Source: a virus
Strand: one strand, 5' to 3'
DNA length: 27,357 nucleotides
IMG/VR virus record: IMGVR_UViG_3300044638_001587
Coordinates: 1-27,357 of that record
The position numbers were made by a program, and so were the translations under genes. Positions 20,491 through 22,204 of this stretch are shown piece after piece; the stretch's first letter is position 1, and every line of letters starts with the position of its first letter. Under the pieces are notes generated by a model, which did no database searches, was not told where the DNA came from, and saw only the letters and a list, made by a program, of their open reading frames with translations.

Positions 20491-21138
20491 ATGTCAAAAA
20501 CAAAATCAGTTGTAGAATTACAGTCCTATAAATCATTATCGGACTTTGGTTATAACGTCGCAAAACGTGCGGATGCAGTACGTGCGGATGGTGCATGGGC
20601 GCTTGATAACATTGTAGGCTTTCCAGAGGATATTTCACCTGAAGCAAGGGTTGAATTGAATGAAGGCTTTCGTCAACGCGCAAGTGAGTTGCCTAAGTAC
20701 GCCGAAATCGTTTACGGTGTAGTAGATGGAAACGTAATTCCATTATCGCAATTGTCGGGCGATGCACCGAAAGAACAATTCAAGGTCAACGTCGCAATGG
20801 TATTTTCATTCAGCCAACAGCAAATTGGTGCAATGAAAAGCGATGACCCAGCCAAGTATCGCGTGATTTATGATTTGCGTGATCGCGTAAATAAATATTG
20901 TTCTGGCAGGTTAGCTGATTTAAAACTAGCAGCTAAGAAAGTATTACGCGAAAGAAATCCAGAATCGCAAACAAGAGCGGCAACATTATCTTTTGGTGAA
21001 TTCATTGAAAAGACTCTCGACACAATGAAAACGCGATGCAAGTCTGCAGAAGCAAGGGGTAATGACCCAACTGCTAACAGCAGAGCATTAGAAAATGCAA
21101 TCATAGCCTTCAAGGTAAAGCTTGAAGTAACTAAGTAA
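20491..21138 (+). CDS. Early phage protein of unknown function, 215 aa
   Basis: A 215-residue mainly helical protein. I start it at ATG 20491, with CGAAAGG 8 bases upstream; the open frame extends to 20356, but that stretch covers the palindrome and promoter. The N-terminal half has LSDFGYNVAKRADAVRADGA and the middle FSFSQQQIGAMKSDDPAKYR. The C-terminal half is basic and helical (ADLKLAAKKVLRERNPESQT) with CKSAEARGNDPTANSRALEN at the end. No helix-turn-helix or catalytic motif stands out. It is a one-gene unit with its own promoter and terminator, flanked by two operator-like palindromes, so it may be a regulator or a DNA-associated protein. This is inference. Confidence 0.7.
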   Translation: MSKTKSVVELQSYKSLSDFGYNVAKRADAVRADGAWALDNIVGFPEDISPEARVELNEGFRQRASELPKYAEIVYGVVDGNVIPLSQLSGDAPKEQFKVNVAMVFSFSQQQIGAMKSDDPAKYRVIYDLRDRVNKYCSGRLADLKLAAKKVLRERNPESQTRAATLSFGEFIEKTLDTMKTRCKSAEARGNDPTANSRALENAIIAFKVKLEVTK

Positions 21139-21144
21139 TACCCG

Positions 21145-21175
21145 AAACCCTAGCCGAAAGGCTAGGGTTTTTTTT
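21145..21175 (+). terminator. Intrinsic terminator after the 215-residue gene
   Basis: CCCTAGCC-GAAA-GGCTAGGG with an extra three A/T pairs on the stem and eight T residues after it, beginning 6 bases after the stop codon. A textbook Rho-independent terminator. Confidence 0.94.
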
Positions 21176-21185
21176 CGCCCTGCGA

Positions 21186-21262
21186 TTTGAAACCAGTTGT
21201 TAGTTATCGCGCGCGCTCGGGCGCGAGCAAGCTCGTTAAATAAGACTTCAGGTATACCTGAA
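21186..21262 (+). repeat. Duplicated intergenic module, copy B, with palindrome O2
   Basis: TTTGAAACCAGTT at 21186-21198, a CG-rich block, CAAGCTCGTTAAATAA, and at 21247-21262 the perfect palindrome TTCAGGTATACCTGAA. Compared with copy A, the palindrome core has CC/GG exchanged on both sides, so symmetry is kept although the bases differ. Confidence 0.75.
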
Positions 21263-21764
21263 TTAACTCATAGATGACGCGAAGCGTAGAGACGCGCTAG
21301 TTATATAATTACGCGACACTTTTTAGCCCTATCATCTACCGTTTGCTTAAATGACGTAATTGGGGTTAAAAACTGTTCTGACAACTGTGTTGTTGTTCTG
21401 GCTACGGAACAGGATTTCGCCTTTTAAATCAACGACTTACGCACTTGTTCCAGTGTTCTGGTCATTTTAGGGGGTATGGGCAGAAACAGTGTTTTTTTCA
21501 GGTTGAACGTCCTTCGCGGCAAGTGCACAAAAAACACTCCCAACCAGCCATACCCTTTTTCACTACCAGAACAGAACACTATATATAGTATATAGTTTAA
21601 ATAATAAAGATAAAAAACCTAGTCTTTTCGCGGCATCTCAGCCATTTCTTACTGTTCCGGCAACACAAAAAAACCAGAACAAAAACAGTATTTTCTACTA
21701 CCTATAGTAGATTCTTGTTCCGGTTTTCCCTACACGCCCAGAACAAAAGTCTCACACAACTAGG
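21263..21764. other. Gene-free control region with TGTTCYGG motif array (candidate origin)
   Basis: About 500 bp with no convincing gene on either strand. It contains 11 copies of TGTTCYGG or close variants in both orientations (starts near 21374, 21394, 21405, 21446, 21454, 21566, 21572, 21653, 21674, 21716 and 21738). It also has an AT-rich stretch at ~21577-21617, a CTACTA-CCTA-TAGTAG hairpin at 21695-21710, and two copies of TTCGCGGCA (21513, 21627). Repeated sites plus an AT-rich tract resemble an iteron-type replication origin. A dense regulator-binding array is the alternative. No replication protein lies in the window to help decide. Confidence 0.6.
21472..21555. repeat. Nested inverted repeats
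   Basis: Outer arms GGGTATGG (21472-21479) and CCATACCC (21548-21555), inner arms AGTGTTTTTT (21488-21497) and AAAAAACACT (21529-21538), separated by 8 nt on the left and 9 nt on the right. Together they could form an interrupted long hairpin or cruciform with a ~31-nt apical loop. Confidence 0.75.
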
Positions 21765-21793
21765 TTGACTTATATGTCAAATAATGGTATAAT
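21765..21793 (+). promoter_or_regulatory. Main early promoter 3, sigma70-like
   Basis: TTGACT (21765-21770), a 17-bp spacer and a consensus TATAAT (21788-21793), the best promoter in the window. The -35 is embedded in the inverted repeat TTGAC-TTATAT-GTCAA, and the spacer carries ATATGTCAA, also found in the same phase at 23922. Confidence 0.78.
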
Positions 21794-21855: not shown

Positions 21856-21871
21856 TTCACGTATACCTGAA
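21856..21871. promoter_or_regulatory. Palindrome O3 in the leader of the main early operon
   Basis: TTCACGTATACCTGAA, one base different from the perfect palindrome at 21247-21262. It lies downstream of the predicted start site and 21 bases before the first ATG, where a bound protein could block elongation or an RNA form could affect translation. Confidence 0.6.
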
Positions 21872-21892: not shown

Positions 21893-22204
21893 ATGGGCAA
21901 ACTAAAACAAGCAATGATCGAGGCACAAGAACAGTTCTTTAGTTTCAATGAGCCACCCGACCTATCAATGGATGATCTAATTAAAGAAGATGTGTTCTTC
22001 CGTTACGGCATAGACATAGACGCAGCGCAGCGCGTTATGACATTGCTGAGAGTGTATCCACCACCTGAGCATTTGTACGTTACGCACCCAGAGTTGCACG
22101 TTGTATGGCTGAATGAATACATAGAAGACATGGAGAACAAGCATTGCAGTAAACAGCTTGAGCTTTTCAACGAGGGCAATATGCCTTGGACATGGGAGAA
22201 ATGA
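21893..22204 (+). CDS. Early phage protein, 103 aa
   Basis: A 103-residue acidic protein, first gene of the main early operon, starting at ATG 21893 after CAGAAAGGAACCCATC. It begins MGKLKQAMIEAQEQFFSFNE and continues with an acidic helical part (DDLIKEDVFFRYGIDIDAAQ) and a Pro/aromatic part (LLRVYPPPEHLYVTHPELHV). It ends NEGNMPWTWEK. I recognise no family. The next gene starts 1 base after its stop codon, so they are co-expressed. Confidence 0.7.
   Translation: MGKLKQAMIEAQEQFFSFNEPPDLSMDDLIKEDVFFRYGIDIDAAQRVMTLLRVYPPPEHLYVTHPELHVVWLNEYIEDMENKHCSKQLELFNEGNMPWTWEK

Follow-up and report, generated by a model that had tools for sequence, protein, structure and literature searches.

SaPI Rep helicases recognise an origin made of iterons through their C-terminal domain (PMC7581432), and the oppositely oriented repeats of SaPI origins load two hexamers head to head (PMC9894130). 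PrimPol-type primases fused to DUF927 helicase domains have also been described in mobile elements (PMC5862659). The locus considered here lies in the window, by which we mean the whole stretch of viral DNA that was analysed (27,357 nucleotides, IMG/VR record IMGVR_UViG_3300044638_001587), and consists of 11 copies of the word TGTTCY (plus strand) or RGAACA (minus strand) between positions 21374 and 21745. It seems reasonable to argue, with a probability of roughly 0.8, that a tailed phage replicates from this array, which would work with a phage-encoded PrimPol-DUF927 initiator, both the binding and the initiation being inferred from sequence comparisons.

The 11 sites start at 21374, 21394, 21406, 21446, 21454, 21568, 21573, 21653, 21676, 21716, and 21740. 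A first-pass annotation of this DNA had claimed about 11 TGTTCYGG-type motifs in both orientations over the same interval, far more than chance would give, and both its count and its coordinates turned out to be exact. From the rate in the rest of the window, 0.62 copies of the 6-mer and 0.04 copies of the exact 8-mer TGTTCYGG are expected in the array interval as against 11 and 7 observed (Poisson P of 7e-11 and 4e-14, respectively), the 8-mer being found three more times in the remaining 27 kb. Elsewhere in the window, the densest 372 bp hold three TGTTCY/RGAACA sites, and the count never rose above four when the intergenic region was dinucleotide-shuffled 2000 times. The array stretch is bounded by a terminator after the open reading frame 20491-21138 and by the open reading frame 21893-22204. 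Its left core iterons (21446-21459, plus strand) form a direct pair with an 8-bp period (TGTTCCAGTGTTCT), its right core iterons (21568-21578, minus strand) form an overlapping opposed pair (AGAACAGAACA), and these opposed TGTTCY clusters stand about 110 bp apart. The tight pairs noticed earlier are thus present at 21446/21454 and 21568/21573, as is the AT-rich tract reported among the motifs (21574-21620, 83% AT), a candidate DNA-unwinding element; the distal iterons follow at 21653-21745 in the orientations plus, minus, plus, minus. The direct pairs are spaced as GTTC-N4/N5-GTTC, which rules out an alphaproteobacterial LexA operator (GTTC-N7-GTTC), as the first-pass annotation had already concluded.

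Relatives were collected by a protein search with p214, the product of 20491-21138, which returned 23 viral contigs at 33-90% identity; larger contigs were found also via the replication protein and were analysed whole or in pieces. The conservation set comprises the 18 phage contigs that cover the array interval, window included. Such a comparison with related phages had been suggested from the sequence alone, and it found the sites lost in none of the 18: each carries a single array at this locus, including those whose neighbouring protein is only about 23-38% identical. The shared gene order runs terL, p214, array, p331, AAA ATPase, VWA protein, family A polymerase, SNF2 helicase, and a 953-aa primase-helicase. 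The array lies shortly downstream of p214 in nearly every contig that is long enough, and about 1.1 kb downstream of it in L007 and L009; L005 keeps p214 and has a single site over its last 897 bp, too short a stretch for the loss of an array to be judged. Among four near relatives, one of 65 iteron columns is variable versus 107 of the 373 other gap-free columns (P 8e-8). The layout of the relatives begins with an IHF-consensus-like 13-mer (WATCAANNASTTA) and has as its shared core two or three direct sites (period of 8-9 bp), a spacer of about 100-140 bp that usually holds GCAAGTGCA, and two or three opposed sites; an AT-rich tract and then distal sites come after the opposed sites in the aligned relatives, and an early sigma70-type promoter usually follows the array. 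De novo k-mer clustering on whole contigs was rejected since it was swamped by coding repeats, yet in several contigs it singled out GGAACA/AGAACA at the array. In most contigs the GC-skew minimum is 2-3.5 kb away from the array; it was left out of the evidence because gene direction switches within that same distance, with which the skew is confounded. A nucleotide search against known phages gave no match to the window, and a genome-collection search for the host was uninformative because its three matches were all metagenome bins of different groups.

The window's own 13-mer, AATCAACGACTTA (21427-21439, plus strand), which sits next to the left core iterons, fits the IHF consensus WATCAANNNNTTR as quoted in PMC10380432. 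Twenty matches to this consensus occur in the 10.8 kb of arrays, where 0.44 would be expected, and 14 of the 18 arrays are positive; the exact 13-mer is absent from the other four. The stricter form has 20 copies in the 18 arrays and just two in the remaining 829 kb, a specificity beyond that of the bare IHF consensus. The likeliest binder would be IHF, and some other protein could bind instead, the N4 of the 13-mer being more constrained than IHF requires. Inside the core spacer, the word GCAAGTGCA (21519-21527, plus strand) is kept in 13 of the 18 arrays; GCRAGTGCA lies in the spacer of as many arrays and has 10 copies in the other 829 kb. The GCAAGTGCA word is possibly a priming start or the site of another protein.

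The window is a 27-kb fragment that ends before the replication genes, and the gene of the presumed initiator lies outside it. A near relative, the near-complete contig G001 (p214 90% and terL 95% identical to those of the window), encodes the 953-aa protein with PrimPol, DUF927 AAA+ helicase, and C-terminal winged helix; the array of G001 is at 6.2-6.6 kb and this gene at 23.7-26.6 kb, about 17 kb apart. The protein matches DUF927 (PF06048, E 1.5e-15) and, weakly and below the curated cut-off, a Cch-type helix-turn-helix (PF18662), and a profile of 35 relatives searched against the PDB found Cch (5dgk, E 7e-14) and SaPIbov1 Rep (8tch, E 7e-11). The predicted model of the 953-aa protein (mean pLDDT 81) has strands and a helix-turn-helix at residues 849-938; its residues 369-951 align with 5dgk and 8tch at Z 30 and 26, the alignment extending to residue 947-951, and residues 1-202 align with the S-2L PrimPol (6zp9, Z 19). 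In the record of Rhizobium phage RHph_TM3_14A (MN988472, 42239-45322), the homologue bears the name putative integrase, which is probably a mistake.

An initiator that recognises the iterons would be expected to diverge together with their word, the arrangement of the sites being preserved. In G042 and G044 the iteron word is TGTKCC with the layout kept, and the helix of the winged domain is VSVSAAEKSW-like as against mostly SSREFE-like in the TGTTCY members; the word and the helix thus appear to change together, in a comparison that has few lineages behind it. The terL-p331 interval of both contigs also carries repeated palindromes, CGTTACAA-N-TTGTAACG or CTTACAA-N-TTGTAAG, around genes; they look operator-like, and their word is lineage-specific. 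Pseudomonas phage Rollin, whose initiator protein is 24% identical, has eight of the nine TTGCATA copies of the 50 kb examined within bases 260-680, inside its first 700 gene-free bases: three one way, three opposed with a 9-bp period and adjoining an AT-rich tract, and two more. This enrichment is post hoc, the word having been chosen after looking at the region. The strict 13-mer was defined on other contigs before Rollin was searched, and its only occurrence in the same 50 kb, AATCAACCACTTA at 324, falls among the TTGCATA copies. Several AAAAGGTAGnAAnTTnCTACCTTTT palindromes are also found in the gene-free region of Rollin (L091, 1-500). The 50 kb examined of RHph_TM3_14A yielded no clear iteron word, and their only two IHF-consensus matches lie in one AT-rich gene-free stretch.

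The p214 gene (20491-21138, plus strand) is directly upstream of the array and is a conserved neighbour that evolves fast; its product, of unassigned fold, gave no PHROG match, no significant known-fold match, and no homologue among known phages, and a protein of this family nearly always adjoins the array. An intrinsic terminator (CCCTAGCCGAAAGGCTAGGG-T8, 21147-21174, plus strand) stands between this upstream gene and the array. On the other side, a sigma70-type promoter, TTGACT-N17-TATAAT (21765-21793, plus strand), the sole such match in the window, starts the rightward early operon, and the same promoter type adjoins the array in many relatives. In the early promoters of the window and of G004 (11848), G024 (17944), and G030 (54518), the -35 and -10 boxes enclose a shared ATATGTmAA core that is not part of the usual sigma70 consensus. 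A 16-bp palindrome, TTCASGTATACSTGAA, is found on both sides of the array (21247-21262 and 21856-21871) and again at about 20394, before p214; it may be an operator or a leader hairpin. Only three or four palindromes of this type occur in the whole contig of a near relative, and in the G005 clade a similar position is taken by TTCAACAGGTGTTGAA.

Our best reading of the array is a bidirectional iteron origin with head-to-head loading by the phage initiator. The winged helix of the phage PrimPol-DUF927 helicase would bind the iterons, and the opposed clusters would load two helicase hexamers head to head on DNA folded by a host bending protein, probably IHF. Melting would take place at the AT-rich tract, and the PrimPol domain of the helicase would make primers, perhaps at GCAAGTGCA, for extension both ways by the phage family A polymerase. 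The proposal of the first-pass annotation, phage-initiator sites with the layout of an iteron origin, is supported by the enrichment, the single locus, the retention in all 18 contigs, and a fitting initiator homologue; to that idea the present analysis adds the initiator, the 13-mer, and the motif switch. It is tempting to generalise to a modular origin of widespread uncultured phages, in which one PrimPol-helicase-winged-helix protein would recognise, unwind, and prime, the word being exchanged while the IHF-type site, the opposed geometry, and the AT-rich tract stay, and GCAAGTGCA would be the PrimPol start; we advance this wider scheme tentatively, and it may well fail in one part or another.

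The array could instead be an operator, on which a phage repressor or activator would control the early promoter at 21765-21793 with no role in replication. Some 20 bp separate its end from a perfect -35 box downstream, and in many relatives the array is likewise followed by an early-type promoter; against this, the sites are confined to one locus, the further copies of this promoter type in G004, G024, and G030 lack any site within 300 bp, and an operator would not need as many as 11 opposed sites spread across 370 bp, together with an AT-rich tract and a 13-mer at the flank. No regulator gene was identified, whereas a fitting initiator exists, and we regard a purely regulatory array as improbable. 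The first-pass annotation had left the choice between an initiator and a master regulator: its initiator half stands, and its regulator half is weakened by the single locus and by the promoter copies without sites. It is just as improbable, in our opinion, that the array is an origin bound by a different phage protein, such as p214, which would then recruit the helicase. In favour of this, p214 abuts the array in nearly all relatives and is without a match in known phages. Against it, the protein is helical with no recognisable DNA-binding fold, diverges to about 23% identity even as the TGTTCY core persists, and went unmatched in G035, G042, and G044 despite their arrays, a result to be read with the caveat that divergence can hide homologues.

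Two further explanations were considered. What is conserved may be a folded element, a large stem-loop as proposed for pRN1, and the opposed iterons do allow a strand of 130-170 nt to fold at -28 to -56 kcal/mol. Once the iterons are removed, the spacer of most relatives has no fold more stable than those of its dinucleotide shuffles (z of -2.1 to +1.9), and the inverted sites themselves therefore account for most of the pairing. A conserved spacer hairpin of the pRN1 type was rejected on these values, which leave the folded element a very slim chance. Centromeres also show clustered short sites in both orientations, and the array might accordingly be a parS-like centre for partition or DNA condensation instead of an origin. 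We hold this to be the least credible of the four, as the scanned early proteins of G001 (a subset of its open reading frames) include no ParA/ParB match and replication genes fill the early half of that genome.

On the origin reading, a large group of environmental phages, familiar chiefly through metagenomes, would gain a defined origin together with a named candidate initiator. The same reading would supply a ready system for testing whether a bacterial MCM-like helicase with a fused primase loads head to head, and the changed iteron word in related lineages makes a recognition code of the winged helix directly testable.

Set beside the systems already described, the array comes close to those of SaPIbov1 Rep (PDB 8tch) and SCCmec Cch (PDB 5dgk). 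A homologous DUF927 AAA+ helicase with a C-terminal DNA-binding domain is common to all, the winged helix resting here on the weak PF18662 match and the model, and the SaPIbov1 origin likewise has short iterons in opposed orientation. The differences are that a PrimPol is here fused to the helicase, that an IHF-type 13-mer is present, and that the array of G001 is not directly downstream of the helicase gene: SaPI origins adjoin rep, whereas about 17 kb separate the two in this nearest relative. The array would thus work like a SaPI/Cch-type origin, yet we do not class it as a member because it is far from the initiator gene. Phage P4 alpha also joins primase, helicase, and winged helix in one protein, and P4 ori and crr, two elements as opposed to the single array here, are made of short iterons in both orientations; the P4 iteron GGTGAACAG(A/T) would have GAACA in common with the array word. 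The alpha origin-binding domain is absent among the PDB profile matches listed. ORF904 of pRN1 (PMC4234260) is a PrimPol-helicase-winged helix protein that similarly acts at a separate cis element; in contrast to the stem-loop origin of pRN1, the iterons are conserved here and the spacer fold is not. Finally, the iteron plasmid origins of RK2, R6K, and pSC101 share with the array the iterons, the AT-rich tract, and an IHF-type site. An origin of that class, with direct iterons of 17-22 bp and a RepA/RepE-type initiator, was rejected since in place of direct repeats of about 20 bp the array has a period of 8-9 bp and opposed clusters, and its candidate initiator, a PrimPol-helicase, is itself the helicase.
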